64,000 bases of DNA from Stenotrophomonas rhizophila (GTDB lineage Bacteria; Pseudomonadota; Gammaproteobacteria; Xanthomonadales; Xanthomonadaceae), in NCBI RefSeq assembly GCF_000661955.1, contig NZ_CP007597.1:4487228-4551227 (forward strand), in the 5' to 3' direction. Each line of letters opens with the position of its first letter. Within the stretch, counting starts at the first letter, position 1. Positions 19,538 to 42,904 of this stretch are shown in pieces. The position numbers and the translations under genes were made by a program. The notes beneath the pieces are model-generated. The model ran no database searches. It saw only the letters and a program-made list of their open reading frames with translations, and had not been told where the DNA came from.

Positions 19538-19553
19538 TGGTAAACCGGTGTCA
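19538..19553 (-). promoter_or_regulatory. Putative KdgR/LacI-type operator A (kduI-kduD)
   Basis: The minus strand reads TGACACCGGTTTACCA, identical over 18 bases (with the following two) to the site at 27298. It lies 68 bp upstream of the kduI start, between the regulator's stop and kduI. Confidence 0.65.
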
Positions 19554-19689
19554 TTTTGCAGCGCACGATAGGCCAGGGCGGGCCCGGCGTGGTGTCCATG
19601 TCAGAAAAGCCGTGCGATCGGCAACCGATTGCACGGGCGCGTGGCGACGCGTTGATCCTGAACGCGCGTCGTTGCCATCGCGGCGCGCG

Positions 19690-20757
19690 TCAATCCTCGG
19701 GCGGTTGGCAGGAGTCGCGCACGATCAGGTGCGGGCGCACGCTGGCGATCTGCAGCGCGGCCTGGCCGTCGGGCTGGATCAGCATGGCCGCGGCGGTGCG
19801 CCCGGTGTCGCGGGTGTGGCGGCGCACCGAGGTCAGCGACGGCCACAGGCGCGAGGCCAGCGGGCTGTCGTCGTAGCCGATGATCGACAGCTGGCGCGGA
19901 ATGTTGATGCCCGCGCGCAGGGCGACCTTGTAGATGCCGGCGGCCATTTCATCGTTGCCGGTGAAGATGGCGGTGGGGCGCTGCTTGCCCAGCAGCAGCT
20001 TTTCGGCGGCGGCCACGCCCGATTCGAAGGTATAGCCGGCCTCGACGATGCGCGCCGGGGGCAGCTCGATGCCGCGCTTGGCCAGCGCATCGATGAAGCC
20101 GGCGGTACGCTCGTGCGCCGAACGGTAGGCGCTCGGGCCGGTCACCAGGGCGATGTCGCGGTGGCCCAGCGAGAGCAGGTAGTCGGCCGCTTCGGCGGCG
20201 CCGTCGCGGTCGTGGGTGACCACCATCTGCGAGGTGTCGTCCAGGGGCAGCGAGGCGATGCGGGTGAAGCGGACGCCGATCTCATCGAGCATGTCCACCA
20301 GCGCCTGGTCTTCCGACGCACGCGGTACCAGGATCACGCCGTGCAGCTTCTGCTGCTGCACGAAGCGGCGCACGCCATCGATGTAGCCGGGGCTGCGCGA
20401 GTCGCAGGGGTGCACCACCAGTTCGAAACTGGAGCCGCGCAGCGCGTCCAGCGCGCCGTACTGCATGTCCACGATGTACTGCGCGGTGGGGTTGTCGTAG
20501 ACCATGCCGATCAGGAACGAGCGCCGGAAGGCCAGCCCACGCGCCAGCGGGTCGGGCGTGTAGCCCACCTCGCGCATCAGTGCTTCCACCTTGTCGCGGG
20601 TGTCTTTACGCACCAGCGGCGAGTTGTTGATGATGCGCGAGACCGTCTTCTTGGACACCCCGGACAGGCGCGCGATGTCGTTGATCGTGGCGGCCTTGCC
20701 TTTGGTCAATCCGTGCGGCGACGGATCGGTTTTGCTGCGCAATGACATGTCGTTCAA
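19690..20757 (-). CDS. LacI-family regulator, probable KdgR of the pectin locus, 355 aa
   Basis: An N-terminal helix-turn-helix and hinge (ATINDIARLSGVSKKTVSRIIN, then YTPDPLARGL) precede a periplasmic-binding-protein-like sensor (SFLIGMVYDNPTAQY, YDDSPLASRLWPSLTSVRR). There is an extra ~20-residue N-terminal extension. In the middle of a galacturonate operon, with identical operator-like sites in front of the neighbouring units, it most likely represses them and responds to 2-keto-3-deoxygluconate or its phosphate. The effector is inferred, not seen. Xanthomonads use LacI-type KdgR rather than the IclR-type KdgR of enterobacteria. Confidence 0.88.
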   Translation of the reverse strand: MNDMSLRSKTDPSPHGLTKGKAATINDIARLSGVSKKTVSRIINNSPLVRKDTRDKVEALMREVGYTPDPLARGLAFRRSFLIGMVYDNPTAQYIVDMQYGALDALRGSSFELVVHPCDSRSPGYIDGVRRFVQQQKLHGVILVPRASEDQALVDMLDEIGVRFTRIASLPLDDTSQMVVTHDRDGAAEAADYLLSLGHRDIALVTGPSAYRSAHERTAGFIDALAKRGIELPPARIVEAGYTFESGVAAAEKLLLGKQRPTAIFTGNDEMAAGIYKVALRAGINIPRQLSIIGYDDSPLASRLWPSLTSVRRHTRDTGRTAAAMLIQPDGQAALQIASVRPHLIVRDSCQPPED

Positions 20758-20791
20758 ACCGGGGATGAGTCAGGGGATTCTAGCGGGCAGC

Positions 20792-22372
20792 TCAATCGAG
20801 GGCGCGGTAGCGGAAATTGCGGAACTCCACCTTGCCCTGGCCGGCAGCGTACAGGGCCGGCTTCAGGGCCAGGAACTTGCCCGCCACATTGTGATGGTAG
20901 CCGGAGACTTCCATCTGAACCGGGTACTTCTGCCAGGTTTTGCCGTCGGTGCTGGAGTGAATGGTGACGATGTGACGGTTGTTGGTCACCCGCAGCCACA
21001 GCGTGCCCCCGGTGGCGCTGGGGGCCAGCCGGGTGGGGCGCTCCTCGCCGTAGCGGTGCATGATGAACTTCTCGCCGTTGCTGCCAACGCCCACGTACAG
21101 GCGGTCGCTGTAGTAGAGCAGGGCACCGCCCACCGCACCCGGGGCGACGTGCATCTCGACCTCGAACTGGTAGGCCGTGTCACCGGCGATGGCGGTCAGC
21201 GGCGAGCTGTCGCGGGGCGTTTCACCCTTGCCCTGCAGCACCAGGCCCTTGCCGGTGAAGTCCAGCCGGGCGTACTCGTCCTGGGCCGGGTTGAAGAACG
21301 ACCACTGCGGGCCAAGGCGCGTGCCGCGGAAATCGTCGGACAGCGCCATGCCGTGCGGGCCCACCGAGCTGCCCGAGGGCTTGGCCAGCGGCTGGCCCAG
21401 ATCGCCGCCCTTGGCCACGAACCAGCCGTCGGCGGTCCATTCGATCGGCTCCAGCAGGGCCTGGCGGCCCAGTGTCCAATACCCGTTCTCGTAGCCGTGG
21501 TACATCATCCACCAGCGCCCGTCGGTGCCTTCGATCACCGTGGCGTGGCCGCGCGACCACCACGGCTCGGCGGCCGACCGGGTGCGCATGATCGGGTTGT
21601 TGGGCGCATTCACCCACGGGCCGTGGATCGAGCGCGAGCGCGCGGTGATCACCATGTGCCCGGTCGGCGGGCCGGCGGTGCCGCCCACGGCGGTGGTCAT
21701 GTAGTACCAGCCATCGCGGAAATTGATCTTCGGGCCTTCCTGCGCGTAGGCCTCCACGTCCCAGCTTTCCGGGTACTTCCAGCCGTCGTACACGTGCTTG
21801 GGCGTGCCGACCACGCTCAGCCCGTCGTCGGCCAGTTGCACGTAGTCGCCGCCGCTGAGGAACAGGTAGCGCTTGCCGTCTTCGCCCACCGCGTGGCCCG
21901 GGTCGATGTAGGCCCCCAGCCCGATGTCGATCGGCTCGCTCCACGGGCCTTTGATGCTGTCGGCCCAGACCACGAAGTTGCTGCGGGTCTCGCCGGTGCG
22001 GGCCGGGAAATAGATGTAGTAGCGGCTGCCGTGCTTGACGATGTCCGGCGCCCAGATCGCCCCCACGTTCCTGGTGATGGCATGGCCCAGCGGCTGCCAG
22101 TTGACCAGGTCGCGCGAGTGCCAGATCGGCAGGCCGGGGTAGGCATCGAACGAGGACAGGGTGAGGTAGTAGTCCTGCCCATCCTTGAGCACCGAGGGAT
22201 CCGGCCGGTCACCGGCGAACACCGGGTTGAGGAAGGTGCCGTTGCCCAGGTCGGCCTGGCGCTGGTTTTCGATCCCGCGCTTCCAGGCGGTGGCGGGCTC
22301 GGCGGCGTGGCCGGCGCCCGCCAGCAGCAGGCAGGCGGTGGCGAAGCTGGCCAGGGTCGTCCTCAAACGCAT
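20792..22372 (-). CDS. Glycoside hydrolase family 43 with C-terminal lectin-like domain, 526 aa
   Basis: Secreted (signal peptide ending AGAGHAAE). The five-bladed propeller carries the GH43 catalytic set: Asp in AGDRPDPSVL near residue 58, Asp in AIWAPDIVK near 113, and Glu in VEAYAQEGPKI near 220. From ~340 (GMALSDDFRGTRLGPQWSFFNP) the protein has the concanavalin-like domain usual at the C-terminus of GH43 xylosidase/arabinosidase/galactosidase types. Within this locus it should trim arabinose, galactose or xylose side chains of pectin; the precise sugar cannot be read. It follows the pectate lyase gene by 37 bases. Confidence 0.9.
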   Translation of the reverse strand: MRLRTTLASFATACLLLAGAGHAAEPATAWKRGIENQRQADLGNGTFLNPVFAGDRPDPSVLKDGQDYYLTLSSFDAYPGLPIWHSRDLVNWQPLGHAITRNVGAIWAPDIVKHGSRYYIYFPARTGETRSNFVVWADSIKGPWSEPIDIGLGAYIDPGHAVGEDGKRYLFLSGGDYVQLADDGLSVVGTPKHVYDGWKYPESWDVEAYAQEGPKINFRDGWYYMTTAVGGTAGPPTGHMVITARSRSIHGPWVNAPNNPIMRTRSAAEPWWSRGHATVIEGTDGRWWMMYHGYENGYWTLGRQALLEPIEWTADGWFVAKGGDLGQPLAKPSGSSVGPHGMALSDDFRGTRLGPQWSFFNPAQDEYARLDFTGKGLVLQGKGETPRDSSPLTAIAGDTAYQFEVEMHVAPGAVGGALLYYSDRLYVGVGSNGEKFIMHRYGEERPTRLAPSATGGTLWLRVTNNRHIVTIHSSTDGKTWQKYPVQMEVSGYHHNVAGKFLALKPALYAAGQGKVEFRNFRYRALD

Positions 22373-22409
22373 CGTGTGTCTCCTTGAACGTAGCGTGGGC
22401 CGGCCGCGC

Positions 22410-23537
22410 TCAGCGCGCCCCGGTCCCGGCGGTGCGCTGTTGCCAGCGCGGGTAGTCGGTGGTGATCAGGGCCTGCGGCCAGGTGCCGTACCAGTGGTAG
22501 CCGGTGCGGCGCTCGCGCGGAATCTCGTCGAAACGGGCCACCCGTTCGCCCTCGCGGTTGGCCAGCAGCACCGAACTGTCCTGCAGGTCGTGGAAGCGCC
22601 CCCACAGCAGCGGCGCGCCGGCGTCGGCGACCAGGCGGCGGTCGACGGTGGTGCGATGGAACTGGAACTGCGCCGGGGTCGTCTCGAACGTCTCCAACCG
22701 CCACCCGGTTACTGCGTGCGCCTGGAACCACGCCATGGCGGCGTTGATGGCGGCGACCACCGCCGGCGACGGGTCCGGGATCGCCATCAGGTAACGGACC
22801 ACGCCGACACTCTCGTCGGTGACCAGTGCGGGCAGCTCGAACTTCCGGCCCTGCGCGGGCAGCAGGGTGGTGCGGTCGTACTGCCCGGCCCAGATCGTCG
22901 CCACGCCGTCCTGGCGCACCTGCAGGCGCAGCAGGCAGGCATCCCCGGCGGTCACGGCGGCGTCCACGCGGGCACGCTGATCGGAAGTGATGAAGCCGAA
23001 CACCGGCTCGCGCAGCACGCGCCGCAGCGTGGTCAGCACGCCACTGGTGACGTCGTCGGCGAAGGTGATGTGGCCGTGGTACGCGGTACGGGACGGCACC
23101 GAATGCGGCCAGCCACCACAGCTGTCGATCTGCTCGGCGAGGATGAAGTCCAGCCCGTGTACGGCGGCATCGCGATAGCGCACGTCACCGCTGCGCGCGA
23201 AGGCCTCGGCGAGGTAGGCCACCTGGGTGTAGATGTTGCGGTTGTCGAAGCTGCCCCCGGGCGTAGCCTGGTCGGCCAGCGCCTGCGTACGGGCGGTGTC
23301 ATCGAGGATGCGTTGCGGGTCCTGGTTGACCGCCCAGCCACCGCCGCCACGCTGCAGCACAAGCAGGTTGTCGGCGATCTGTCGGTACTGGTCCGGGCGA
23401 TAGCGCGGGTAGTCCGTGCCGTGCCCGCTCTGCCAGTGGTGGATGCCGTCCTGGAAGCCGCGCAGCGCGATGTCCGGGCCCTGCGCCATCGTGGCGCAGG
23501 GCAGGGCGATCCACAGCAGGACCGCGAGCCGCCGCAC
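22410..23537 (-). CDS. Pectate lyase, polysaccharide lyase family 10, 375 aa
   Basis: Cleaves polygalacturonate by beta-elimination, giving unsaturated oligogalacturonides. The all-helical (alpha/alpha) PL10 pattern is visible: NLLVLQRGGGGWAVNQDP, FDNRNIYTQVAYLAEAF, and the C-terminal FARFDEIPRERRTGYHWYGTWP. GTG 23537 gives a good signal peptide (MRRLAVLLWIALPCATMAQ); a start at 23567 would overlap dctM by 28 bases. The gene is the expected periplasmic or secreted first enzyme of this operon and is transcribed together with the TRAP genes. Confidence 0.85.
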   Translation of the reverse strand: MRRLAVLLWIALPCATMAQGPDIALRGFQDGIHHWQSGHGTDYPRYRPDQYRQIADNLLVLQRGGGGWAVNQDPQRILDDTARTQALADQATPGGSFDNRNIYTQVAYLAEAFARSGDVRYRDAAVHGLDFILAEQIDSCGGWPHSVPSRTAYHGHITFADDVTSGVLTTLRRVLREPVFGFITSDQRARVDAAVTAGDACLLRLQVRQDGVATIWAGQYDRTTLLPAQGRKFELPALVTDESVGVVRYLMAIPDPSPAVVAAINAAMAWFQAHAVTGWRLETFETTPAQFQFHRTTVDRRLVADAGAPLLWGRFHDLQDSSVLLANREGERVARFDEIPRERRTGYHWYGTWPQALITTDYPRWQQRTAGTGAR

Positions 23538-23539
23538 GT

Positions 23540-24823
23540 TTACGCGCGCAGCAGGGCGGGCAGCCACAGCGACATTTCCGGGAAGAAGGTGACGATCAAC
23601 AGCACGCCCAACGCGGCGAACCAGAAGGGCCAGATCGAGCGCATGCTCTCGCCCACGCTGATCTTGCCGATTGCGGTACCGATGAACAGCACCGAGCCCA
23701 CCGGCGGCGTCACCAGGCCCAGACCACCGGTCAGCACCAGCACCAGGCCGAAGTGGATCGGGTCGATGCCGTAGGCCTTGGCCACCGGCAGGAAGATCGG
23801 CGTGCAGATCAGGATCATCGGTGCCAGGTCCATGAAGGTGCCCAGCAGCAACAGCATCACCACGATCATCAGCAGCACCATGAACTGGCTGTGCGCGAAG
23901 GACTGCAGGAAGTTCACCGCGGCCGCGGGCACTTCCAGGTAGGCCAGCAGCCAGCCGAACACCGCGGCGGTGGCGATCACGAACAGGATCACACCGGTGC
24001 TGCGCGCCGCATGGGTCACCGTGCCCATGAACTCGCGCCAGTTGAGCTGGCGGTACAGCACGGTGGTGACCAGCAGGGCGTAGACCACGGCGATGGCCGC
24101 GCTTTCCACCGCGGTGAAGATGCCCGCGCGGATACCGATGAAGATCAGCGCCACCAGGCCCAGGCCCGGCAGCGCCGAGACCAGCCGCAGCAGCACCGCG
24201 CGCCAGCCCGGGAAGATTTCCACGCCGTAACCGCGGCGGCGTGCCACGAGATAACCGGTGATCATCAGGACGACGGTCATCAGCAGCGCCGGCACGATAC
24301 CGGCCGCGAACAGGTCGGCGATCGACAGCCCGCCGCCGGCCGCGGCCGAGAACAGGATCAGGTTGTGCGACGGCGGCACCAGCAGCGCGACCAGCGCGGC
24401 AGTGATGCTGACGTTGACCGCGAAGTCGCGGTCGTAGCCGCGCTTGACCATCTGCGGAATCATCGTGCCGCCCACCGCCGAGACATCGGCGATGGCCGAA
24501 CCGGACACGCCACCGAAGAACAGCGAGGACAGGATCGACACCTGGCCCAGGCCACCGCGCATGCGCCCCACCAGCGAGGAGGCCAGCGAGATCAGGCGTT
24601 CGGAGATGCCGCCGCGCATCATGATTTCACCGGCGAAGATGAACAAGGGAATGGCGATCAGCGAGGCCGAGCCGGTGCCGGCGGAGATCTGCTGGACCAG
24701 CACCAGGGTGGGCAGGTCCAGGTACCACAGCGTGGCCAGGGCGGCGGCGGCCAGCGCATAGGCCACCGGCACGCCCAGCAGCAGCAGCACCGCGAAAACG
24801 GTAAACAGGATCGTGATACCCAT
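23540..24823 (-). CDS. dctM: TRAP transporter large permease (DctM), 427 aa
   Basis: About twelve hydrophobic segments, the TRAP large-subunit signatures IPLFIFAGEIMMRGGIS, SILSSLFFGGVSGSAIADVSAVG and PSHNLILFSAAAGG. It moves a sugar acid across the inner membrane, driven by Na+ or H+, with DctQ and DctP encoded next door. The pectate-lyase and kdu context suggests (unsaturated) galacturonate or its oligomers. Confidence 0.95.
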   Translation of the reverse strand: MGITILFTVFAVLLLLGVPVAYALAAAALATLWYLDLPTLVLVQQISAGTGSASLIAIPLFIFAGEIMMRGGISERLISLASSLVGRMRGGLGQVSILSSLFFGGVSGSAIADVSAVGGTMIPQMVKRGYDRDFAVNVSITAALVALLVPPSHNLILFSAAAGGGLSIADLFAAGIVPALLMTVVLMITGYLVARRRGYGVEIFPGWRAVLLRLVSALPGLGLVALIFIGIRAGIFTAVESAAIAVVYALLVTTVLYRQLNWREFMGTVTHAARSTGVILFVIATAAVFGWLLAYLEVPAAAVNFLQSFAHSQFMVLLMIVVMLLLLGTFMDLAPMILICTPIFLPVAKAYGIDPIHFGLVLVLTGGLGLVTPPVGSVLFIGTAIGKISVGESMRSIWPFWFAALGVLLIVTFFPEMSLWLPALLRA

Positions 24824-24826
24824 GGC

Positions 24827-25363
24827 TCAGCGGTCTCCCTCGGCAACGGTGTCGGCGTCGACGGGCAGCACAGCCTGCACCATCTGGTTCACGGCGAAGA
24901 TCGCCATCAGTGCGCCGCCAATGGACAGCGGCAGGTAGTTGATGCTCTGCGGCAGGTTGGCGCCGGCCGCCTTGATGTCCAGGCCGTCCAGCAGCAGCAC
25001 CGCGGCCCACCATGCAATCACGGTGCCGAGCACGGCCACCACCAGCGCGGCGAACACGTCCACCGCGCGGCGCAGGCCCGGGCCCATGTGCGCGGCCAGC
25101 AGGAAGAAGCCGAAGTGGCGGCGGGTGTGCACGCCAGTGGCCGCGCCCAGGCTCATCGCGGTGGCCAGCAGCAGCAGCGTGACCGGCTCGGTCCAGCTGG
25201 GCGAATCGTTGATGACGTAGCGTGCGAACACCTGCCAGCCCTGCACCACCACCAGCCCGAGCAGGGCGATGACGGCAATGTGGATGGCGACGTCGGCGAT
25301 GACGTTGAGCACGCGCTGCGGCGCGCTGACGATGACGGGGGGTTCGGAAGTCGGGTCGGACAT
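24827..25363 (-). CDS. dctQ: TRAP transporter small permease (DctQ), 178 aa
   Basis: Four membrane helices, with the small-subunit pattern WQVFARYVINDSPSWTEPVTLLLL (first cytoplasmic loop after helix one) near residue 50. The stop is three bases before dctM. It is needed to assemble the transporter. Confidence 0.9.
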   Translation of the reverse strand: MSDPTSEPPVIVSAPQRVLNVIADVAIHIAVIALLGLVVVQGWQVFARYVINDSPSWTEPVTLLLLATAMSLGAATGVHTRRHFGFFLLAAHMGPGLRRAVDVFAALVVAVLGTVIAWWAAVLLLDGLDIKAAGANLPQSINYLPLSIGGALMAIFAVNQMVQAVLPVDADTVAEGDR

Positions 25364-25375
25364 CGCGTCGGGGCC

Positions 25376-26380
25376 TCAGGCGAAGTCGCGGATGCGACGG
25401 GTAAGCGCGGCCAGCGCCGGCTGCTGCAGGTACTGCTGCAGCAGCGGATCGGCGGCCTTGCGGAAGGCCGGCATGTCGACGGCGTTGAACGTGATGCCGA
25501 AGTCGGCCACGGCCTGGCGGGCGGTGTTTTCCGAGGCATCCCACTGCTGGCGCATCACCGTGACCGATTCACGCGCGGTCTCGATCACCAGCGCGCGGTC
25601 GGCCGGGGTGAGCGCCTCCAGGCTCTGGCGCGACATCAGCAGCACGTCCGGCGCATAGGAATGGTCACTCTGCGACCAGTAATGCGCGGCCTCGAAATGA
25701 CGGCTGGAATGGAAGCTGCGCATGTTGTTTTCCGCACCGTCGATCATGTGCGTTTCCATGCCCGAGAAAGTGTCGCCCAGCGACATCGGGGTGGGGTTGG
25801 CACCCAGCAGGCGCATCAGCTGGATGAAGATGTCCGACGACGCCACGCGCAGCTTCAGGCCGTGCAGGTCCTTGGGCTCCACGATGGGGTGCTTGGTGTT
25901 GTAGAAGCAGCGCGCGCCGGAATCGTAGATGGCCAGGCCGACCAGGTCGCGGGTCTCGAAGCCCTTCAGCACTGCGTCGGCCACGCCACCGTCCAGCGCG
26001 CGGCGCATGTGCGCCACCGACTCGAACACGTAGGGCAGGCACAGCGCCTGGGTCAGCGGAAAGGCGTTGTTGAGTGCACCGGAGTAGACCCGGGTGATGT
26101 CGATGGCGCCGAAGCGGGCCATGTCGATCGCCTCGGACTCACGGCCGAGCTGGCCGGAGTGGTACTGGCGCAGCTTCAGGCGGCCGCCGGTCTTGTGTTC
26201 CAGCTGCTGGCCGATCCACTTCACCGCGGTGACGGTGGGGTAGTCGGCCACGTGGACGTCGGTGGCGGTCAGCAACTGCGCACCGGCCGGCGCGCTGCCC
26301 GTTGACCGCGAACAGGCCGCCAGCGCAGGCACGGCAAGCGCGCCCAGACCGGTGCCAAGGAAATTTCTGCGAGTGAACAT
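25376..26380 (-). CDS. dctP: TRAP solute-binding protein (DctP), 334 aa
   Basis: Captures the substrate in the periplasm. A twin-arginine-like and lipobox-like N-terminus (FTRRNFLGTGLGALAVPALAACS) is present. The DctP fold shows VADYPTVTAVKWIG, LKLRVASSDIFIQLM with the conserved Arg that clamps a carboxylate near residue 165, and a C-terminal AALTRRIRDF. ATG 26380 is chosen because it begins the signal. It is the second gene of a unit starting at 27239. Confidence 0.92.
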   Translation of the reverse strand: MFTRRNFLGTGLGALAVPALAACSRSTGSAPAGAQLLTATDVHVADYPTVTAVKWIGQQLEHKTGGRLKLRQYHSGQLGRESEAIDMARFGAIDITRVYSGALNNAFPLTQALCLPYVFESVAHMRRALDGGVADAVLKGFETRDLVGLAIYDSGARCFYNTKHPIVEPKDLHGLKLRVASSDIFIQLMRLLGANPTPMSLGDTFSGMETHMIDGAENNMRSFHSSRHFEAAHYWSQSDHSYAPDVLLMSRQSLEALTPADRALVIETARESVTVMRQQWDASENTARQAVADFGITFNAVDMPAFRKAADPLLQQYLQQPALAALTRRIRDFA

Positions 26381-26417
26381 CTGCGCCCTCCCAAGCGGAC
26401 TGTCCAAGGCTGCGCGG

Positions 26418-27239
26418 TTACCCGGCAGCGATGGCCCTGCAGGTAATGTCGCCGTAACCGGCGAAACGGATCAGTGCCTGTTGGCCTACGGCAATGTCGT
26501 GGATGCCGGTGGCGTTGCCGCTGGCGATCAGGTCGCCGGCCTTCAACGGCCGACCGCGCTGCGCCGAACGGCCCAGGGCGAAGGCGTAGGCGGTACGCAG
26601 GCCACCGGGCAACAGGGTGGCACCGCCGGTACCGACCACCTCACCGTCGATGCGGGTTTCCGCACGCAGGTCGGCATCGTCCAGGAGGGTCCAGTCGGCG
26701 ATCTCGGTGCCGAGCACCAGGCCGTTGTTGTTGCCGAAATCGGACACCACCACGCGCGGGCCGAGTTTGTTGATGGTGGCCAACGGGCTGCTGGCCACTT
26801 CCACGCCGATGAACAGCCGGGCGGCCAGCGCCTCGGCTTCCTCCGGCGTCCAGTGCAGCTTGTCGGCCGGGGCGTCTTCCTGCAGCTGGATCACGTACTC
26901 GGCCTCGACCGCGCCGAAGCCGCCGACGAACACCGGAATGTCCACTGTTCCACCGGTAGCATTTTGCAGATTGCGCGAGAAAATCGGGCCCAGCAGGCGG
27001 TCATCGCCCGAGGCATCGCGGCGTTCGGCGGCGATGTAGCCCACTTTCCAGCCCACTACCTGGTCGCCCCACAGCGCGATGGCCTGGTCCTGCACCTGGT
27101 AGGCGGTGACCAGGTCGGCGGGGATCGTGCCCGGGAAATCCGGCAGGGATCGGCCCTGTTGGCGGGCGCCGACGAAGTGGCGGGCGATCTCACCCAAACC
27201 GTGGTCTGGCAGGTCCTGTTTGCCGTTGTCGTTGCTCAA
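26418..27239 (-). CDS. FAH-superfamily / MhpD-like 2-keto acid hydratase, 273 aa
   Basis: The fold of 2-keto-4-pentenoate hydratase/decarboxylase (MhpD) is seen: VGWKVGYI near residue 63, AEYVIQL with the metal Glu near 115, and FNNNGLVLG-like FGNNNGLVLGTEI near 170 with ATLLPGGLRTAYAFA. No ATG fits; TTG 27239 is used with GGGAG upstream. It is the first gene of the TRAP-PL10-GH43 unit and sits behind an operator-like site. In known galacturonate pathways no MhpD step is required, so its substrate here (a keto-deoxy acid or oligomer product) is an open question. Confidence 0.75.
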   Translation of the reverse strand: MSNDNGKQDLPDHGLGEIARHFVGARQQGRSLPDFPGTIPADLVTAYQVQDQAIALWGDQVVGWKVGYIAAERRDASGDDRLLGPIFSRNLQNATGGTVDIPVFVGGFGAVEAEYVIQLQEDAPADKLHWTPEEAEALAARLFIGVEVASSPLATINKLGPRVVVSDFGNNNGLVLGTEIADWTLLDDADLRAETRIDGEVVGTGGATLLPGGLRTAYAFALGRSAQRGRPLKAGDLIASGNATGIHDIAVGQQALIRFAGYGDITCRAIAAG

Positions 27240-27297
27240 GCGGGTCTCCCGGAGAAATGTTGCACTGCCAATCGACAGTGGCTGGATGAGCTGTATA

Positions 27298-27313
27298 TGG
27301 TAAACCGGTGTCA
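27298..27313 (-). promoter_or_regulatory. Putative KdgR/LacI-type operator B (divergent promoter)
   Basis: Minus strand TGACACCGGTTTACCA, identical to operator A. It sits 59 bp upstream of the TTG start of the FAH-like gene and 75 bp upstream of the divergent esterase at 27388, so it could control both. Confidence 0.65.
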
Positions 27314-27387
27314 TTGGCAATGTGCAGCGCATCAGAGGCGCCATCGTCAGGCACGATCCGGGGTACACCCCCACCTGGAAAGGACCG

Positions 27388-32496: not shown

Positions 32497-32511
32497 ATGC
32501 GTGGCAGGGCG

Positions 32512-35500: not shown

Positions 35501-36330
35501 GGGGTCGCGTCCCAGCCATGGCGGTGGCGCCAGGCGCGCATCGGGTCCGGCACGGCCACGGCGGTGGCGGGTGTGGCATTGCGCGCCAGGGCGGCCATAC
35601 CGGCCGGATCCAGCAGGCGGTCGTAGACGCGGATCTCGTCGAAGTCGCTGCCGCGCAGGAAGTTGTAGCGGCTCTGCACCTGGTAGGGCGCCATCACGCG
35701 CGCGGCCAGGCCGAGCTGATCGAGTGCGGCGTCGTAGTCGGCGGTGGTCTCCTGGCGGGCGACCTCCTTGCCGTCCACGTACAGGCGCACGCCGTGGTTT
35801 TCATCCCAGCCGAAGGCGATGTGCTGCCACTGCTGCGGCGAGGGGTTCTGGTCGAGCTTGAATGACACGCGCGTGCGCGCCAGGTTGGCATCGGTGACGA
35901 ACGCATCGAAGCCGTGGCCGTTCCAGTCGATCCGCAGCCAGGCCATGTCCCAGCTGCTGTGGTCGGCATAGCCGACCCGGAAGATCACGAACGGGGCTTC
36001 GCCCACCGCGTAGCGGGAGCGCCAGAAGAAGCCCAACGTGCCGCGCTGGGCCTGGATGTTGCCCGGCGCATTCCACGACAACACGCCATCATCCGCCCAT
36101 TCGATCGCGCTGCCGTGCGCCCCGTTCGGCACCCGCTTCACCTTGTCCACGAAGTTCGGTACCGGATCGCCCGCGGCGGTGTCGGCCTGCAGGCCCTGGT
36201 CGGCCGAGACGTGGAACAGCAGCTGCGGGGCGGTCTGCGCCCAGGCGGTGCCACTGCCCGCAAGCAGCAGGGCCAGCAGGCTGGCCGACAGGCGGGAGGG
36301 ACGGATCAAGGGGGCGACAGGGCGATGCAT
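32512..36330 (-). CDS. Large secreted protein with N-terminal LamG/ConA domain, unknown activity, 1272 aa
   Basis: ATG 36330 follows GGAAGG; a signal peptide ends AWAQT. Residues ~25-240 form a LamG-type jelly-roll (GTLGFFWRSRYAVGEAPF, RLYVDGKEVARQETTADYD, FDEIRVYDRLLDPAGM). A second beta-rich module spans ~270-600. Residues ~640-1080 look like an (alpha/alpha) toroid, with DFGGGISDDSDLTQQWPG, GYLAHAYTDDKG, FWAAWRWTGDDKYLKAL and NTGFSSLMAWQATGDKKYL. The C-terminus (~1180-1272) is a CARDB-like Ig module. Located 151 bp behind a carbohydrate TBDR, it is a candidate polysaccharide lyase or hydrolase for rhamnogalacturonan, but I recognise no CAZy family or catalytic residues. Confidence 0.8.
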   Translation of the reverse strand: MHRPVAPLIRPSRLSASLLALLLAGSGTAWAQTAPQLLFHVSADQGLQADTAAGDPVPNFVDKVKRVPNGAHGSAIEWADDGVLSWNAPGNIQAQRGTLGFFWRSRYAVGEAPFVIFRVGYADHSSWDMAWLRIDWNGHGFDAFVTDANLARTRVSFKLDQNPSPQQWQHIAFGWDENHGVRLYVDGKEVARQETTADYDAALDQLGLAARVMAPYQVQSRYNFLRGSDFDEIRVYDRLLDPAGMAALARNATPATAVAVPDPMRAWRHRHGWDATPPPALTTTTTTIRKVEFADTKDHKQWMWKATDGIAETTWPGVYNRSRLPGRNDYFQLPDWNTYVEGGQQLDLTLPAGETVNRIEVRGAAFGGLSHSADGQPPQTLFQRPQGVVRSVDAIAAQTGGVLHFRNTEQETPIQEIWAYQVSDAAEPEGTVKQRYLVDSQALPDYTNIAALREYIDGRYPAAERSTVMALPKGAGARRRTADTLPAQPLPIVHVLIPSGVSDAPAAQPLIRSWAHSWENMHDGLDGVAIDLPALDLPATHDGLIPLNIRIKDPIWPARDMIDVSVSVKPGQKRTLWLDLRDRILTADSLWISIASAAPGFNATSLDGAEIRMVYKDREEAKKEHIADRFNQARDNWGFLVEEHTTSKRQRLYARVYADLSDLLRVDPDHVNGRLYWNYISYNSQGKPPFAQPQAPKGVPQWAFAQTEDLKYVRRFIDWWIDNRQIAYGDFGGGISDDSDLTQQWPGLALMGVQPDKLNASLTALSDAVYRNGMFSNGLSTIETDELHAYEEGINTNSAMLYLNWGDPLTVERLMETVKAFDERIILPNPQGHLLFSSNWFGGNKVYREPNWQWQKPYSFPVLHPAFLMGQYNADPTGRKLVTGLADGYLAHAYTDDKGRWALPNEIHWATGKTRGGELNNGSGSGDIMHTFWAAWRWTGDDKYLKALDYRVERGGPGALSNLGENYVEALGRAAEWNPRFISDADAGNTGFSSLMAWQATGDKKYLAALHADGIQAKAQREYMNTEGHWWSDRVEAPSEFLQRARLGGIALKRNQSWPGHTVSWRFAQPNAAEQVALLVHAPSPDRFKVIAYNLGTRAVDAEMSTWNVTAGQWRMTSGVDRNGDDTIDGKATTRDLTLERSASTTLRFVPGQSQVFEFELVQAGTPVEQRADLGIGRGDVRMDGQQLHVTVHSLGHVGTGAGVAVLEDAKGRELARVEMPSLPAPSDLLPKTTTVRLPLPAGDRRGLRVRVMQADGAAEVTQRNNMVTLDR

Positions 36331-36481
36331 GGGACCTTCCTTTCGACAGCAGAAACAGTACAGCGGAACCACCAGCGGGCGTCAGCGGCTCACGGTGGCC
36401 TCCCGCCCCCGCACCGCGCCCGCCATCCCGGAGAGAAGGACGGGGACGGGCGCGATACAGGTGGCGGCAGGCGCAGCACGG

Positions 36482-39400
36482 TCAGAACTTGTAGCGCAGG
36501 CCGAGGTAGTACTGACGGCCGGTGTGCGTGTAGCGGTCGGGCAGCGACAACGCCGAATCGACGTAGCGCTCATCGGCGGTGTCGAGCAGGTTGATCGCTT
36601 CGAAGGTCAGCGAGAGATTCTTGTTGACCTTGTAGGACATGTTGAAGTCCACGTTCTCCACGCTGTACTTGCCCTGCACATCGGCGGTGGCGAGCTGCTT
36701 GCCGTCCAGGTCCCATACGTTTTCCTGCGACAGGATGGTGCTGATGTACGCGTCGCGGTAGCTGGTGGACACGCGGGCGCTGAAGCGGCCGTCGTCGTAG
36801 TACAGCGTGGCGTTGTACGAGTTCGGCGACAGGTTCAGCAGGTCGTTCTCGGTGTAGGTGGTGACGATGGTGCTGCCGGTGCCCGAGCTGAACATGTATT
36901 TGATCTTCGATTCGACGTGCGTGTAGTTGAGCTGCACGCCGAAATTGCGCCAGAAGCCGGGCAGGAAGCTGAAAGGCTGCTGGTAGGACACTTCATAGCC
37001 CTTGAGCGGGCCGCCGGGCGTATTGAAGTAGCTCTGCACGTTGAACACGGTGTCCGGGCTGAAGCCGGTCGGCAGCAGATCCAGCGAATAGCCCATGTCC
37101 GCCCAGGTGGTCATCAGGCGGGTGCGCTGCACGTAGCTCTCGATGTCCTTGTAGAACACCGCCGCCGACAGCAGCGCGCCCTCGTCGAAGTACCACTCCG
37201 CGCTGAGGTCGTAGTTGGTCGAGCGGAACGGATCCAGCTTGGGGTTGCCCAGGTTGATCGAGTACGCGCGGTCATCGTCGAAATACGCCGTGGGCCCACC
37301 GCTGACGCTCGGCGACAGGTTGGACAGGGTCGGGCGGGCCATGGTCTTGGCCGCGCCGAAGCGCAGCACGAAGGTGTCGGTCAGGTCCCAGGCCAGGTTC
37401 AACGAGGGCAGCCAGTCGTCGTACTTGTGGCCGACCCGGGTGCCGACCTGCAGACGCTCGCCGGGGTCGGCGGTGGCGCTGGCCACGCCGAAGAACGGTG
37501 CGCAGGCCGAGGACAGGTCGTTCGCGTTGGTGGCGGTACACGGCGCGTAGCCATCGGCGGTGATACGGGTCTGCACGTAACGTACGCCGAGGTTGCCGCG
37601 GAACGCGCGGCCCAGCAGGTCGGTGTTGAAGTCCAGCTGCAGGTAGCTGCCGTAGCTTTTTTCGTTGACGTCGAAGTTGTTGTTGGACGCGCCGAAGTGG
37701 CCGACGCTGGCCAGCCGGTAGTCGCCGCCCAGCGTGCCGGTGTTGCAGTTGCAGTAGATGTCCAGCAGGTTGGCGATCTGCTTGAAGTCCGGCACCAGCC
37801 ACGCGTTGGGCAGGCTGCCATCCATGCCCTTGCCGAAGCCGCTCAGCGAGCTGCTGAGGTCACCCACGGTAACCCCGTCCGGCAGCGCCTGCGACAGGCG
37901 CCCGTAACTGATGTTGCGGTACTCCTGCGTGCTCATGTCGTAGTCCTTGTAGGCCAGACCGCCGCGCAGGGTGAAGGTGGGATTGATGACGAAGGTGAGG
38001 TCCACCTTGGCCGTGTCGAAGGCGTTGTCGACATACTGCGGGTTCAGCCGCACTTCGCTGATGTTGCCGCCGCGCGCGGTGCCGTTGGCATTGACCGGCG
38101 TGCTGCCGTAGCCCAGCCACTGCCAGTTGTTCACGGCGCTGAGGTCGAACGGGAACGACATCGCCGGCACCTTGCCGTTGCGCATGTCCAGCACGAAGCC
38201 GTCCAGGTTGCTGTTGTCGAAGCTGACCATCGAGAACACCGGTCGTGCGTAGTTCGACTCGGAATGGCCGACCACCGCGTCCAGCCGCACCGCGTCGTTG
38301 AAGCGGTGTTCCAGGTTCAGGCTGAACTGCTTGAACTCGGTGCTCTCTTCGATCGCGGTGGATTCGGTGCGGAAGTCCACGTTGTCGAACACGCCGTAGG
38401 TGAGGCGGTTCTGCGCGTCGGCCTGCGCCTCGCGGACCACGATCTGGGTCTTGCCGCCGTACTGCGCGGTGCGGTGCAGGTTGGCGCCGATGGAGTCTTC
38501 GCGCACGTCCTTGTCGAGCTTGGAATACAGCACGTCCAGGTTCAACTGGGTGTCGTCGCTGACCTTGAACTGCAGCGCGCCGGTGACGCCCAGGCGTTCG
38601 ATCTCGTGTTCGGTGCGGACGTAGCGCGGGTAGCGCGGGATCCACGCGTTGGTCGCGGTCTCGTAGGCGGCGATGTTTTCGGCCGTGGCGGCGGGCCGGT
38701 CCAGGCCGGGGCCGCAGTGGGTGGCATCGATACCGTAGCTGCCCCAGCCGTTGCTGCGCGCCTGGTTGGCGGCGCTGCCCACACCGGCGGCGGTTTCATT
38801 GGCCAGCGGGTTGCGCGGGGTCTGCGGGTCGTAGCCGGCCGGGCTGCAGAAACCGTAGGTGCCGTTGTTGGCCGCGGTGCTCTGGTTGGAGTTGCGGTAG
38901 TTGCCGTGCTCCCAGCGGACCGGGTTGTAGCCTTCCTCGAAAATGGTGCGCTTGCTGTAGGCCACCGACATCAGCGCGCCGAAGCGACCGTCGGCCCAGG
39001 TGTTGCTGATCAGCCCGGAGATGCGCGGGTCTTTGTTCCTGGACAGCTCGTTGTAGCCGTACTGGCCGCCGAGCGATGCCTGGAAGCCCTCGAAGTCGAA
39101 CGGGCGCGAACCGCGCAGGTCGACCGTGGCGCCCAGCGAGCCTTCGTCGGTCTGCGCCGACTGGGTCTTGTTGATCTTGACCCGGCTGAAGAGTTCAGAG
39201 GCAAAGGTGTTGAAGTCGAAGCCGCGGCTGCGGTTGACGCCGGTGGTGCCGCTGCCGGCGGTGGACAGCGCTTCCAGGCCGTTGATGCGCACGCGGGTGA
39301 AGTCCGAGCCCAGGCCGCGCACGGAGATCTGCTGGCCTTCGCCGCCTTCGCGGTCGATCGACACGCCTGCAATGCGCTGCATCGACTCGGCCAGGTTCAG

Positions 39401-39661
39401 ATCGGGGAATTTGCCGATGTCTTCGGCGTAGATCGCATCCACCTGCTCGACGCTGTAGCGCTTTTCATCCAGCGACTGCTGCAGGCTTTCGCGGTAGGTG
39501 GCTTTGACCTCCACCTTGTCCAGGTCCACCGCGTTGAGTGCGGCCGCCGCTTCCGGCGTCTGCTGGGCCGCGGCGATGCCGGCGGTGCCCTGCAGGGCGA
39601 ATGCTATGGCGACCGCAAGTACGGTAACCGGTGTCTTTTTACAGGAGAACGGTCGATCCAT
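36482..39661 (-). CDS. TonB-dependent receptor, carbohydrate (TonB-Xanth-Caul) type, 1059 aa
   Basis: ATG 39661 gives a signal peptide (KKTPVTVLAVAIAFALQG). The plug shows the class signature DIGKFPDLNLAESMQRIAG and GEGQQISVRGLGSDFTRVRING; the barrel is long and ends in the terminal Phe (LRYKF). TonB-Xanth-Caul receptors are typical of xanthomonads and take up plant oligosaccharides. It precedes the 1272-residue protein on the same strand, and an operator-like site lies 100 bp upstream. Likely ligand: rhamnogalacturonan or pectic oligosaccharides. Confidence 0.93.
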   Translation of the reverse strand: MDRPFSCKKTPVTVLAVAIAFALQGTAGIAAAQQTPEAAAALNAVDLDKVEVKATYRESLQQSLDEKRYSVEQVDAIYAEDIGKFPDLNLAESMQRIAGVSIDREGGEGQQISVRGLGSDFTRVRINGLEALSTAGSGTTGVNRSRGFDFNTFASELFSRVKINKTQSAQTDEGSLGATVDLRGSRPFDFEGFQASLGGQYGYNELSRNKDPRISGLISNTWADGRFGALMSVAYSKRTIFEEGYNPVRWEHGNYRNSNQSTAANNGTYGFCSPAGYDPQTPRNPLANETAAGVGSAANQARSNGWGSYGIDATHCGPGLDRPAATAENIAAYETATNAWIPRYPRYVRTEHEIERLGVTGALQFKVSDDTQLNLDVLYSKLDKDVREDSIGANLHRTAQYGGKTQIVVREAQADAQNRLTYGVFDNVDFRTESTAIEESTEFKQFSLNLEHRFNDAVRLDAVVGHSESNYARPVFSMVSFDNSNLDGFVLDMRNGKVPAMSFPFDLSAVNNWQWLGYGSTPVNANGTARGGNISEVRLNPQYVDNAFDTAKVDLTFVINPTFTLRGGLAYKDYDMSTQEYRNISYGRLSQALPDGVTVGDLSSSLSGFGKGMDGSLPNAWLVPDFKQIANLLDIYCNCNTGTLGGDYRLASVGHFGASNNNFDVNEKSYGSYLQLDFNTDLLGRAFRGNLGVRYVQTRITADGYAPCTATNANDLSSACAPFFGVASATADPGERLQVGTRVGHKYDDWLPSLNLAWDLTDTFVLRFGAAKTMARPTLSNLSPSVSGGPTAYFDDDRAYSINLGNPKLDPFRSTNYDLSAEWYFDEGALLSAAVFYKDIESYVQRTRLMTTWADMGYSLDLLPTGFSPDTVFNVQSYFNTPGGPLKGYEVSYQQPFSFLPGFWRNFGVQLNYTHVESKIKYMFSSGTGSTIVTTYTENDLLNLSPNSYNATLYYDDGRFSARVSTSYRDAYISTILSQENVWDLDGKQLATADVQGKYSVENVDFNMSYKVNKNLSLTFEAINLLDTADERYVDSALSLPDRYTHTGRQYYLGLRYKF
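39622..39636 (-). other. Operator-like core inside TBDR signal-peptide codons
   Basis: The minus strand reads AGACACCGGTTACCG, two bases off TGACACCGGTTACCA, within the codons for KTPVT. The same 18 bases occur in the next receptor (42647). It may be only a conserved signal sequence. Confidence 0.25.
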
Positions 39662-39760: not shown

Positions 39761-39775
39761 TGACACCGTTGGTCA
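39761..39775 (+). promoter_or_regulatory. Putative KdgR/LacI-type operator C (TBDR at 36482)
   Basis: TGACACCGTTGGTCA, near-palindrome TGAC...GTCA, 100 bp upstream of the receptor start. It shares TGACACCG with operators A, B, D and E. Confidence 0.55.
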
Positions 39776-39876: not shown

Positions 39877-39902
39877 CGGCGGCGTGATGGCTCACGCCGC
39901 CG
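39877..39902. terminator. Hairpin after TBDR at 39921
   Basis: An 11-bp perfect stem (39877-39887 with 39892-39902, four-base loop) starts about 18 bases after the receptor's stop. No T-run is visible. Confidence 0.55.
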
Positions 39903-39920
39903 CTGGGTCCTGCCGGTGAA

Positions 39921-42686
39921 TCAGAACTTGTAGCGCACGCCGAGCATGAACTGGCGGCCGGTTTCGGTGTACTGCAGTGGCAAACGCCCGGTGGACGGCG
40001 AGTACACCCACTCGTCGCTGGCTTCGTTGGTCAGGTTCATGCCTTCCAGGCTCAGCTCCAGCTTCTCGTTGATCGCGTAGCGGATCGAGGCGTCGATGAA
40101 GGTGGTACCGGTCATGCCGTGGTAACCATCGAGGTTGAAGCCCGCTTCGGTGCCGGTCACCTGGGTCAGGTAGTCGTCGCGGTTGGTCGCCGAGACGCGG
40201 CCGGAGAACACTTTGCCTTCATAGAACAGCGTGGCGTTCCAGGAGTTGCGCGACAGACCGGTGAGGTCGGCCTTGAGCACCGGCTGGCCGCTGGAGTTGA
40301 TGTACTGGATCTGCGAATCGACCCAGGTGTAGTTCAGCTGCACGCCCAGGTTGGACCACTTGCCCGGCAGGAAGGTGAAGGGCTGGGTGTAGTTGACTTC
40401 CACGCCCTTGAGTTCGCCACCCGGGGTGTTCACCGGCTTGGTGTACGTGAAGTCGCTGTCGGGGTTGGCGCCGGTGCCGATCAGCAGCGCGTCGGGCAAG
40501 CCGCTGAAGCTGTAGGGATGGGTTTCGCGCGTGGTCTGGATGAAGGTGTCGATGTCCTTGTAGAACAGACCGACACCGGCCATCGCGCCTTCGGCGAAGT
40601 ACCACTCGAAGCCCAGGTCCACGTTGGTGGCGCGGATCGGGTCCAGATCCGGGTTGCCGGTGGCGATGGTGCGCGCCGAGCCGGCCACGGCCACGGTGGA
40701 CCCCGGGGTCAGGTTGCCCAGGCCCGGACGGCTCATCACCTTGGCCGCGCCCAGGCGGATCAGGAAGTCCGGGGTGATCTCCGCCACCAGGTTGAACGAG
40801 GGCAGGGTGTCGTCGTAGGTGCGGTTGGCCGTCGTGGAGATCGTGGTGGTGGTCAGCGTGGACAGGCCGGTGGCGCTCTGCTTGGTGCGCACGTAGCGCA
40901 CACCGAAGTTGCCCGAGAACGGGATGCTGCCCAGTTCGGTGGAGAACTCACCCATCAGGTAGCCGCCGCGATCTTCTTCTTCCACGCTGCGCACGTTGTT
41001 GGCGCGCGGCGCGACGGCGAAGATCCCGGTGTTGCTGTAGATGTCGAACTGGTTGGCGACCGCGTTGAGGTCCGGCACCACCCAGTTGTTCGGGCTGCCG
41101 GTGATGCCCTTGAGGCCTTCCTGCTGGGTCATGTCCACCGGGACGATCTTGGTGCCGTCGGCGAAGGTGGGCACCACCAGTTCACTGCCACGACGCAGCT
41201 CGACGGTCTTGAACGTGTAGTTCTTGGCCAGCACGCCGCCCTTCAGGCGGAAGCCGGGGCTGATGTTCCAGTTGAAGTCGATCTGGCCGGTGTCGAAGTC
41301 GTTGTCCACGTACTGCGGGCGCAGGCGGATTTCCGCGAGTTCCCAGCCAGCGGGGTTGGTCGGGTCGATACCGTAGTTCAGCGTCGGGAACCGGCTGTTG
41401 CCCCGGTAGTCGTAGCTGTAGTTGTCCACGTCATACTTGTCCATGATGATCGTGGTCTGGACCGGATTCTCGTGCTTGGAGCGCGAGATGCCGACCTTGC
41501 CGGACAAGGTGAAGGCATCGCCAAAGCGGTGCTGGCCGTTCAACGCGATCTGCTTGAACTCGGTGCTCCACTCGTCGTGGCGGTTCTCGCTGCGGATATC
41601 GACGTTGTCGAACTCGCCGTACACCAGCGCGTTGTTCTCGATCACCCCGTTCTTGACGATCATCGACGGCTTGCCGTCGCGCTCGGGCCGACGCAGTGCG
41701 CCAGTGGCCGAATCGCGGGCGCGGCTGAAGGAGATCGCCTCGATGTAGTGCTCGTCGCGCTTGGCATCGATCTTGGAGTACAGCGCGTCCAGCGAGATCT
41801 CGGTGGCGTCGGTGGGCTTCCACTGCAGGGTGCCGGTCACGCCCAGGCGCTTCTGCTCGTGTTCCATCTGCACGTACCGCGGGAAGCGCGGGTGGTAGAC
41901 GTTGGCGTTGCGCGCCTCCGCGAACGGCGAGTCGGCATTGAAGTTGCTGTTGCTCGGGCCGTTGGCCCAGCGGCCGGTGTTGGAGCCTTCTTCCAGCGCC
42001 TGGCGCTCGGAGTAGGCCACCGACAACAGCGCACCGAAGGTGCCATCGGCGAAGGTGTTGGAGATCAGCGCGGCCACGCGCGGATCGGCCTTTTCGGCCA
42101 TGGCGTTGTAGCTGGCCTGGCCACTGGCGGCGAAGGTGAAGCCGTCGTAGTCGAACGGGCGCGCGGTGCGCAGGTCCACGGTGGCGCCCAGCGAGCCTTC
42201 CTCGACGTCGGCCGAGGCGGTCTTGCGCACCAGCAGCTGCGAGAACAGGTCCGAGGCGAACACGTTGAAGTCGAAGCCGCGGCCGCGGTTGGTGCCGCCG
42301 CTCTGGTCACCGGCGCCGACCGTGGTCAGCGCTTCCATGCCGTTGATGCGCACGCGGGTGAAGTCCGGACCGAGGCCACGCACGGAAATGTTGCGGCCTT
42401 CGCCGGCTTCACGGGTGATGACCACGCCCGGAATGCGCTGCAGCGACTCGGCCAGGTTGAGGTCCGGGAACTTGCCGATATCCTCGGCGACGATGGCATC
42501 GACCACGCCGGCTTCGCCGCGCTTGATGTCCAGCGCCTTCTCGACGCTGGCGCGGTAGCCGGTGACGGTGACAGTGTCCAGGTCGGTAGGGGTTTCCTGG
42601 GCCAGCGCGGTACCACTCAGCGCCAGGCCGATCGACAGGGCAAGCAAGGTAACCGGTGTCTTTTTCTGGATGTTTCGAGATTGCAT
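39921..42686 (-). CDS. TonB-dependent receptor, carbohydrate (TonB-Xanth-Caul) type, 921 aa
   Basis: Signal peptide (MQSRNIQKKTPVTLLALSIG). Class signature DIGKFPDLNLAESLQRIPG and GEGRNISVRGLGPDFTRVRING; barrel ends in LGVRYKF. It shares an almost identical plug with the receptor at 36482 but is shorter in the barrel, so the two probably take different pectic oligosaccharides. An operator-like site (D) lies 58 bp upstream; kdgK is divergent from it. Confidence 0.93.
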   Translation of the reverse strand: MQSRNIQKKTPVTLLALSIGLALSGTALAQETPTDLDTVTVTGYRASVEKALDIKRGEAGVVDAIVAEDIGKFPDLNLAESLQRIPGVVITREAGEGRNISVRGLGPDFTRVRINGMEALTTVGAGDQSGGTNRGRGFDFNVFASDLFSQLLVRKTASADVEEGSLGATVDLRTARPFDYDGFTFAASGQASYNAMAEKADPRVAALISNTFADGTFGALLSVAYSERQALEEGSNTGRWANGPSNSNFNADSPFAEARNANVYHPRFPRYVQMEHEQKRLGVTGTLQWKPTDATEISLDALYSKIDAKRDEHYIEAISFSRARDSATGALRRPERDGKPSMIVKNGVIENNALVYGEFDNVDIRSENRHDEWSTEFKQIALNGQHRFGDAFTLSGKVGISRSKHENPVQTTIIMDKYDVDNYSYDYRGNSRFPTLNYGIDPTNPAGWELAEIRLRPQYVDNDFDTGQIDFNWNISPGFRLKGGVLAKNYTFKTVELRRGSELVVPTFADGTKIVPVDMTQQEGLKGITGSPNNWVVPDLNAVANQFDIYSNTGIFAVAPRANNVRSVEEEDRGGYLMGEFSTELGSIPFSGNFGVRYVRTKQSATGLSTLTTTTISTTANRTYDDTLPSFNLVAEITPDFLIRLGAAKVMSRPGLGNLTPGSTVAVAGSARTIATGNPDLDPIRATNVDLGFEWYFAEGAMAGVGLFYKDIDTFIQTTRETHPYSFSGLPDALLIGTGANPDSDFTYTKPVNTPGGELKGVEVNYTQPFTFLPGKWSNLGVQLNYTWVDSQIQYINSSGQPVLKADLTGLSRNSWNATLFYEGKVFSGRVSATNRDDYLTQVTGTEAGFNLDGYHGMTGTTFIDASIRYAINEKLELSLEGMNLTNEASDEWVYSPSTGRLPLQYTETGRQFMLGVRYKF
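42647..42661 (-). other. Operator-like core inside TBDR signal-peptide codons
   Basis: Minus strand AGACACCGGTTACCT in the KTPVT codons; identical to the core in the other receptor's signal peptide at 39622. Confidence 0.25.
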
Positions 42687-42743
42687 GTTTTCCCTCTCCC
42701 AAGGTGCTACATGAAACAGCTATCCGGCGACATGTCAGTGCAA

Positions 42744-42758
42744 TGACACCGCTGGTCA
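42744..42758 (+). promoter_or_regulatory. Putative KdgR/LacI-type operator D (TBDR at 39921)
   Basis: TGACACCGCTGGTCA, outer arms TGAC/GTCA, 58 bp upstream of the receptor ATG. Confidence 0.6.
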
Positions 42759-42889
42759 GGGCGGACGTTAACAGCCCGTTCCAGAAGGAGCATCTTGCAG
42801 CGCAACAGATTTTCAATGTCCCCCGGAGGCTTGCGGGACAATGCTTTCGACATTCCATCCGGTAGACGGCAGGCGCCGCAAGGCTAGAA

Positions 42890-42904
42890 TGACACCGCTA
42901 GCCA
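42890..42904 (+). promoter_or_regulatory. Putative KdgR/LacI-type operator E (kdgK-kdgA)
   Basis: TGACACCGCTAGCCA inside the larger AATG...CATT inverted frame, 53 bp upstream of the kdgK ATG. Confidence 0.6.

Follow-up and report, generated by a model that had tools for sequence, protein, structure and literature searches.

Five candidate operators in a pectin-use cluster

We analysed a stretch of 64,000 nucleotides of Stenotrophomonas rhizophila (NCBI RefSeq assembly GCF_000661955.1, contig NZ_CP007597.1, positions 4,487,228 to 4,551,227; the window, to which coordinates refer unless another place is named), from a 4.65-Mb chromosome carried on a single contig. A pectin-use cluster spans ~16-45 kb of the window. 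Its minus strand carries kduI-kduD, the gene of a LacI-family regulator (19690-20757), and genes for a GH43 glycoside hydrolase, a pectate lyase, a TRAP transporter and an FAH-type protein; the rest of the cluster consists of esterases divergent from the FAH-TRAP run, two TonB-dependent receptors (TBDRs, here TB1 and TB2) and kdgK-kdgA. Five short sites, A to E, precede these units (Table 1). We put at about 0.88 the probability that all five are operators of one repressor, the LacI-family protein encoded at 19690-20757 (the 19690 protein), which would bind and repress there.

The sites lie exactly where a sequence-only reading of the window had placed them, each marked by the octamer TGACACCG, at 19546-19553 (-), 27306-27313 (-), 39761 (+), 42744 (+) and 42890 (+). 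The identity over 18 bases that it had reported between two sites is found in A and B, which share AATGACACCGGTTTACCA, and its spacing of 53-100 bp agrees with our computed distances of 52-99 bp between the site ends and the kduI, FAH, TB1, TB2 and kdgK starts. As palindromes the sites are weak, with a strict left arm and a loose right arm. A sixth copy of TGACACCG, at 23294 (-), falls inside the PL10 gene without the remainder of the motif, and by itself the octamer is no more frequent than chance allows: its 6 copies in the window compare with an expected mean of 3.17, and 12 of 100 shuffles reach 6. The genome-wide motif scan that the sequence-only reading had recommended showed concentration at this cluster for the extended motif: TGACACCGNTN{3,4}CA occurs 10 times in the whole chromosome, five of these being A-E, and its reversed form 0 times. 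Allowing 2 mismatches made the scan of this genome uninformative (545 matches, versus 613 in the control). As TGACACCGNTN{3,4}CA was derived from these very sites, an independent test was sought in other genomes.

Conservation of the sites with the regulator and its putative targets

Relatives were searched with the pattern ATGACACCGNTN{3,4}CA, the reversed pattern serving as control; LacI orthologues in family genomes were called at E <= 1.1e-140. Among 149 genomes of the family, the pattern was present in 56 of the 59 with an orthologue (196 matches) and in 30 of the 90 without (40 matches), while the control gave 4 and 6, respectively. Three orthologue-bearing genomes gave no match: in G124 and G028 the cluster is missing around LacI, and in G103 the sites fall outside the pattern. 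A scan of related genomes had likewise been recommended, and in 38 of the orthologue-bearing ones 93 of 131 matches fell in the 40-kb neighbourhood of the LacI orthologue, against an expectation of 0.37 (1.52 Mb fetched out of 156.8 Mb, from rounded sizes); this count omits G124 (0 matches) and G071 (1 match), none of them in the fetched stretch.

The left half is invariant in our region alignments by construction, and the real test is therefore the presence of a site per locus and per genome. We used the named loci, which are the best 80 of 191 loci encoding a LacI relative, and 41 regions (40 picked from the 59 orthologue-bearing genomes, plus the window), or 39 once G124 and G071, which lack the cluster, are set aside. 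Of the named loci, 77 could be tested at kduI (or kduD), and 75 of these have TGACACCG in front of the gene; at the FAH-TRAP operon all 73 testable loci have it. Counted per genome, site A is found in 37 of 39 (inverted in two) and site B in 38 of the 39; kduI and kduD gave no match in G022, and G018 is rearranged. An arrangement like that of C, before a TBDR, recurs in five other regions of the 39.

A site upstream of kdgK was found in all 39 cluster-bearing genomes examined, inside the fetched stretch in 32 and elsewhere in G134, G006, G140, G118, G017, G111 and G043. On the kdgK side of G018 the site has FAH as its other neighbour, and one of three sites in G145 is probably due to chance. 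Eight genomes (the seven just named plus G064) have their TBDR-kdgK pair 39-73 kb away from lacI or on a different contig, and these distant pairs still hold two sites 155-158 bp apart. Outside the family, 12 relatives at the level of the order were considered: a match lies within 8 kb of LacI in 7 of 7 whose LacI is 63-68% identical, and in 4 of 5 at 51-56% identity. The claim of a single regulon read by the 19690 protein thus gains support from the conservation of sites at the same promoters and their co-occurrence with the orthologue, from their staying with distant target genes, and from their disappearance where the pectin genes have disappeared (see below).

Tandem TGACACCGGT sites 32-35 bp apart, or ~three helical turns, were seen upstream of kdgK in G022, G103, G027, G018 and G040, some of them with a symmetric 14-bp right arm; this spacing suggests cooperative binding in those lineages. 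In G138:C1 and G090:C18, a second LacI protein (52-54% identity) is encoded next to the first, with a separate TGACACCGGTAGTCA site ~110-130 bp upstream; this paralogue may share the operator.

One register with an extra base in the right half

A common frame, TGACACCGNTNNNC, accommodates all sites, its right arm being longer by one base. The operator form is TGACACC followed by GNTNNNC; relative to its central CG, at positions 7-8, the outer G contact of the right half is displaced outward by one base compared with that of the left half. This CG belongs to the octamer by which the sites were found, whereas T10 and C14 had no part in finding them. At the named loci, T10 and C14 occur in 75/75 and 75/75 A sites and in 72/73 and 73/73 B sites, the B counts having been made without the filter GGTTT[AC]C. 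When 138 sites are aligned on the left half, C14 is present in 130 and T10 in 137; class B of this set was preselected with GGTTT[AC]C, which gives T10 and C14 by construction, and the other classes were unselected. Among 47 sites that precede kdgK, 40 have C14. The usual even and constant spacing does not hold here, CA occupying the symmetric 14-bp place in only 4 of the 138 sites.

The regulator and its apparently orphaned orthologues

The 19690 protein combines a LacI-type helix-turn-helix domain (PF00356, 66.8 bits against a cut-off of 27) with sensor domains of the periplasmic-binding-protein-like kind (PF13377 and PF00532, above cut-off); at E <= 1e-5, Pfam gives LacI-type and periplasmic-binding domains only, and no IclR domains. 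Its true start is probably the ATG at 20748. The closest named relatives come from Stenotrophomonas, and the closest solved structures (CcpA, RbsR, PurR and LacI) are uninformative on the inducer. The recognition helix reads SKKTVSR here and SKKT[VI]SR in 41/41 orthologues examined, and within this genome it is unique to the 19690 protein among nine LacI-type proteins. The specificity residues KK are likewise constant in 41/41 orthologues, and the genome's eight other LacI-type proteins lack this pair.

From FAH to lacI the gene run is unbroken, with intergenic gaps of 10, 12, 3, -28, 37 and 34 bp, the last between GH43 and lacI; in 39 of the 41 regions the upstream neighbour of lacI among the queried genes is GH43, dctM or PL10 on the same strand. 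If this run is transcribed as one operon, lacI, its final gene, would probably be autoregulated through B.

Three genomes offer a natural loss. G124, G071 and G224 retain a 73%-identical LacI beside kdgA, at loci L161 (G124), L162-L163 (G071) and L271 (G224), where it lies between a cysteine-dioxygenase-like gene and kdgA. Because the contigs of G124 and G071 measure only 11.0 and 24.5 kb, kduI and dctM were searched genome-wide: both are absent from all three genomes (at E <= 1e-10 for kduI and E <= 1e-60 for dctM), while the same searches find both in G098 and G145. No TGACACCG lies near LacI in the three genomes, and the three motif matches in G224 are all megabases away from it. The regulon and its operators have been lost together here, with the regulator retained, and the DNA-binding stretch is unchanged at 51/52 residues in G124 and G071. 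This LacI is apparently an orphaned regulator. A fourth orthologue-bearing genome without the cluster, G028 (L269), has an apparently orphaned LacI too, adjoining kdgK and with no operators near; within 40 kb the other cluster genes are absent, except for a distant kduD-like match at 36% identity.

A broader picture would be that an order-wide LacI group keeps a one-base-expanded, asymmetric O1-like operator, frozen in its left half and drifting in its right, and that the regulator of one Stenotrophomonas lineage has persisted after the loss of its regulon, its helix kept and its sensor diverged, perhaps for a new use beside kdgA. Taken as a whole, we regard this double proposal as tentative, with slightly less than an even chance of being correct.

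Promoter elements and the weighing of alternatives

Putative promoter elements were found at A and B (Table 1). A TANNNT hexamer follows the putative -35 of kduI at a spacing of 17-19 bp in 33 of 35 genomes, and operator B sits inside the spacer between its putative -35 and -10; a site on a -35 and a site in a spacer both fit repression. Promoters were also sought at the E sites, and at most of them none was found. Control of the divergent esterases by B, which the sequence-only reading had proposed, is at most a possibility: the promoter elements point to FAH-TRAP, and the nearest esterase is 1.4-1.7 kb off in 14 of 39 regions.

The sequence-only reading had itself cautioned that A and B, 16 bases long with an even centre, might form one group and C-E, of 15 bases, another. 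Two proteins would then be at work, the 19690 protein on A and B and another regulator on C-E. The right arms of A/B and C-E do differ within the window, and two further LacI-type proteins of this genome have K as their second recognition residue. The division by length nevertheless dissolves among relatives, whose A sites come both in 16 (TTTACCA, TTAACCA) and in 15 bases (TTACCA, TTTCCA, GGTCA); L069, L070 and L072 even combine TGACACCGGTGGTCA at A with a 16-base site B within one genome. With C14 fixed in both groups and present in 130/138 sites in a single register, we consider two proteins very unlikely. Conservation of the octamer as a promoter element, a -35 like TTGACA, rather than as an operator has in its favour the kduI site, where the left half doubles as the -35 and a -10 follows at the spacing given above. 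At B, however, the octamer falls between the elements of the best -35/-10 pair, in a spacer whose sequence promoters do not conserve; C and D have no -10-like peak, the T10 and C14 of the right arm are fixed, and in G115 and G137 the kduI site is inverted at the same place, which marks it as an operator and not merely a promoter element. Of all the alternatives this is the one to which we give least weight. LacI-family proteins can also act as activators, so the 19690 protein could be an activator or dual-acting; yet A covers a putative -35 and B lies in a putative spacer, positions at which a bound protein excludes polymerase, and a role other than repression accordingly seems highly improbable.

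A number of observations weigh against the reading that A-E are operators of one LacI-family repressor. The LacI-type proteins encoded at 726859 and 381554 of this genome share the second recognition K and might bind similar half-sites, and the orphaned LacI keeps its recognition helix without a nearby site, so that the helix alone is no proof of a site. Matches are not confined to the expected company: 30 of the 90 orthologue-free family genomes still carry one, five of the ten in the S. rhizophila genome (L111-L115) lie outside the cluster, and in some order-level genomes the reversed control comes near the pattern count (6 versus 9 in G150; 4 versus 7 in G158). Two named loci miss site A, L028 with one octamer mismatch and L044 with its site farther upstream, and the right arm of site A is poor in G103. 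For the -10 at B, alternative offsets come close to the one chosen (3.47 and 3.26, versus 4.0), and promoter elements were sought for C and D without any being found. Finally, L111 (G000:C1:2268411-2268425, TGACACCGCTCGACA) lies <50 bp before another LacI-type gene, whose helix is SPMTVSR.

The 15-mer of L111, TGACACCGCTCGACA, recurs in G233, and possible explanations are cross-talk or that this is the LacI-type protein's own site. Judged from their open reading frames, L112-L115 look like chance matches.

Proposed mechanism and comparison with known systems

If the 19690 protein is the single repressor, a dimer would set its two recognition helices (SKKTVSR) into the strict left half, TGACACC, and the loose right half, respectively, spanning the central CG step and accommodating the extra right-half base as in the natural lac O1. 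Without pectin, it would block the promoters of kduI-kduD, of the FAH-TRAP-PL10-GH43-lacI run, of the two outer-membrane receptors and of kdgK-kdgA. During pectin breakdown, a shared intermediate, most likely 2-keto-3-deoxygluconate (KDG), would bind the sensor domain and release the repressor, while lacI, which closes an operon targeted by its own product, would limit itself. Sites precede genes for both the formation and the breakdown of KDG (kduI-kduD, TRAP and kdgK-kdgA), and as uptake, kduI-kduD and kdgK-kdgA converge on this compound, it is probably the inducer, as far as a shared pathway can tell. KDG is also the signal of the Dickeya KdgR.

The arrangement has much in common with the LacI regulons described in the available part of a survey (PMC4052901): a local catabolic regulon, a LacI helix-turn-helix with a sensor of periplasmic-binding type, a central CG, sites 30-140 bp before the starts, probable autoregulation (reported there for 72% of LacI-family regulators) and tandem sites, here those 32-35 bp apart in five relatives. 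It departs from the norm of the survey in its right arm, which is one base longer and loose. Even palindromes were found there for 1251 of 1303 regulators (96%), usually with constant spacing, so the operator form seen here is uncommon, not new; Xanthomonas and Stenotrophomonas go unnamed in the survey's main text. With the LacI-type KdgR, UxaR, UxuR and ExuR of its Table 1, the 19690 protein shares a pathway area, uronate breakdown through KDG, the likeness being one of pathway alone. The sequence-only reading had taken LacI-type KdgR regulators to be known in xanthomonads, a statement for which we found no confirmation: the published KdgR of Xanthomonas oryzae belongs to the IclR family (PMC7831014); it has its name and pathway in common with the 19690 protein, which is of LacI type instead.

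A further parallel is E. coli LacI on lac O1, whose half-sites are unequal through an intervening base in one half and for which two recognition-helix residues are the main specificity determinants and a helix arginine is paired with the outer G (PMC2978694). One half-site is lengthened by a base in both systems; unlike E. coli LacI, with YQ, the 19690 protein has KK as recognition residues, and nothing here gives evidence for tetramers or loops. The gene context resembles a carbohydrate-utilisation (CUT) locus for pectin in Xanthomonas, where the TBDR XCC0120, induced by polygalacturonate, lies beside pectin enzymes (PMC1790865); XCC0120 and TB1/TB2 are likened by context only. The available text of that paper names no LacI regulator for the locus, and another paper calls the regulation of the Xanthomonas polygalacturonate response unclear (PMC3551730). 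A literature search by title and the opening of the abstract, which covered few subscription papers, returned no description of the 19690 LacI pectin regulon. RegPrecise may, we presume, hold a KdgR entry for Xanthomonadales.

Taken together, the evidence of sequence comparison gives good support to a local LacI regulon that serves pectin and unsaturated uronates throughout the family and has an asymmetric operator resembling lac O1. Its mechanism is ordinary in kind, a familiar sort of switch. What the analysis adds is a testable map of how bacteria of a large family, plant-associated and plant-pathogenic, would turn on pectin use through a single repressor, from uptake at the outer membrane down to the final enzyme. 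It also supplies a collection of >130 natural candidate operators for one group of orthologues, in which one half-site is fixed and the other free, useful for asking how LacI proteins tolerate an extra base.

Genes and features of the cluster

Table 1 Candidate operators, putative promoter elements and genes of the pectin-use cluster, in window coordinates
Feature	Position	Strand	Remarks
Operator A, TGACACCGGTTTACCA	19538-19553	-	kduI-kduD promoter
Operator B, TGACACCGGTTTACCA	27298-27313	-	promoter of FAH-TRAP-PL10-GH43-lacI run
Operator C, TGACACCGTTGGTCA	39761-39775	+	upstream of TB1 (TB1 on - strand)
Operator D, TGACACCGCTGGTCA	42744-42758	+	upstream of TB2 (- strand), inside TB2-kdgK gap
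Operator E, TGACACCGCTAGCCA	42890-42904	+	upstream of kdgK
Putative -35 of kduI, ATGACA	19549-19554	-	overlaps operator A; deduced from -10 in 35-genome alignment
Putative -10 of kduI, TACACT	19526-19531	-	17 bp after -35
Putative -35 of FAH-TRAP operon, TTGCCA	27315-27320	-	mean 4.24 of 6 matches at this offset, 38 genomes
Putative -10 of FAH-TRAP operon, TATACA	27292-27297	-	17 bp from -35; mean 4.0 of 6
Tentative -10 of kdgK, TAGAAT	42885-42890	+	touches operator E; in 6/32 genomes listed, this one included
kduD, 2-dehydro-3-deoxy-D-gluconate 5-dehydrogenase	17800-18585	-	TIGR01832 above cut-off
kduI, 5-dehydro-4-deoxy-D-glucuronate isomerase	18622-19470	-	NF002091 above cut-off
LacI-family regulator, proposed reader of A-E	19690-20757	-	PF00356 and PF13377 above cut-off
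GH43 glycoside hydrolase	20792-22372	-	PF04616
Pectate lyase, PL10 type	22410-23567	-	PF09492; TIGR02474 above cut-off
TRAP transporter dctM, dctQ, dctP	23540-26407	-	PF06808, PF04290, PF03480
FAH-superfamily hydratase/hydrolase-like protein, heads gene run	26418-27239	-	presumed TTG start
TonB-dependent receptor TB1	36482-39661	-	TIGR01782 above cut-off
TonB-dependent receptor TB2	39921-42686	-	TIGR01782 above cut-off
kdgK, PfkB-type sugar kinase, probably KDG kinase	42957-43973	+	PF00294
kdgA/eda, KDPG aldolase	43960-44598	+	TIGR01182 and NF004325 above cut-off

Two of the assignments go with profile matches under cut-off. The FAH-like protein matches its profiles weakly (TIGR03218 at 5.3e-09; PF01557 at 0.038), and the top NCBIfam matches of kdgK, every one under cut-off, are an aldolase/sugar-kinase fusion and KDG kinases. 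The start of TB1 was set at the ATG (39661) that precedes a signal peptide.

TB1 is followed by a gene for a 1286-aa protein (32512-36372, -), probably secreted, with a Laminin_G_3 (ConA-like) domain. This protein has 67-79% identity in eight other genomes, versus 52-67% for the overlapping plus-strand open reading frames at 32497 and 34321, which look like shadow frames. A contig labelled Bacillus subtilis SK7B5 (L010) encodes, within a pectin cluster, a LacI 97% identical to the 19690 protein; that assembly is probably contaminated or misfiled.

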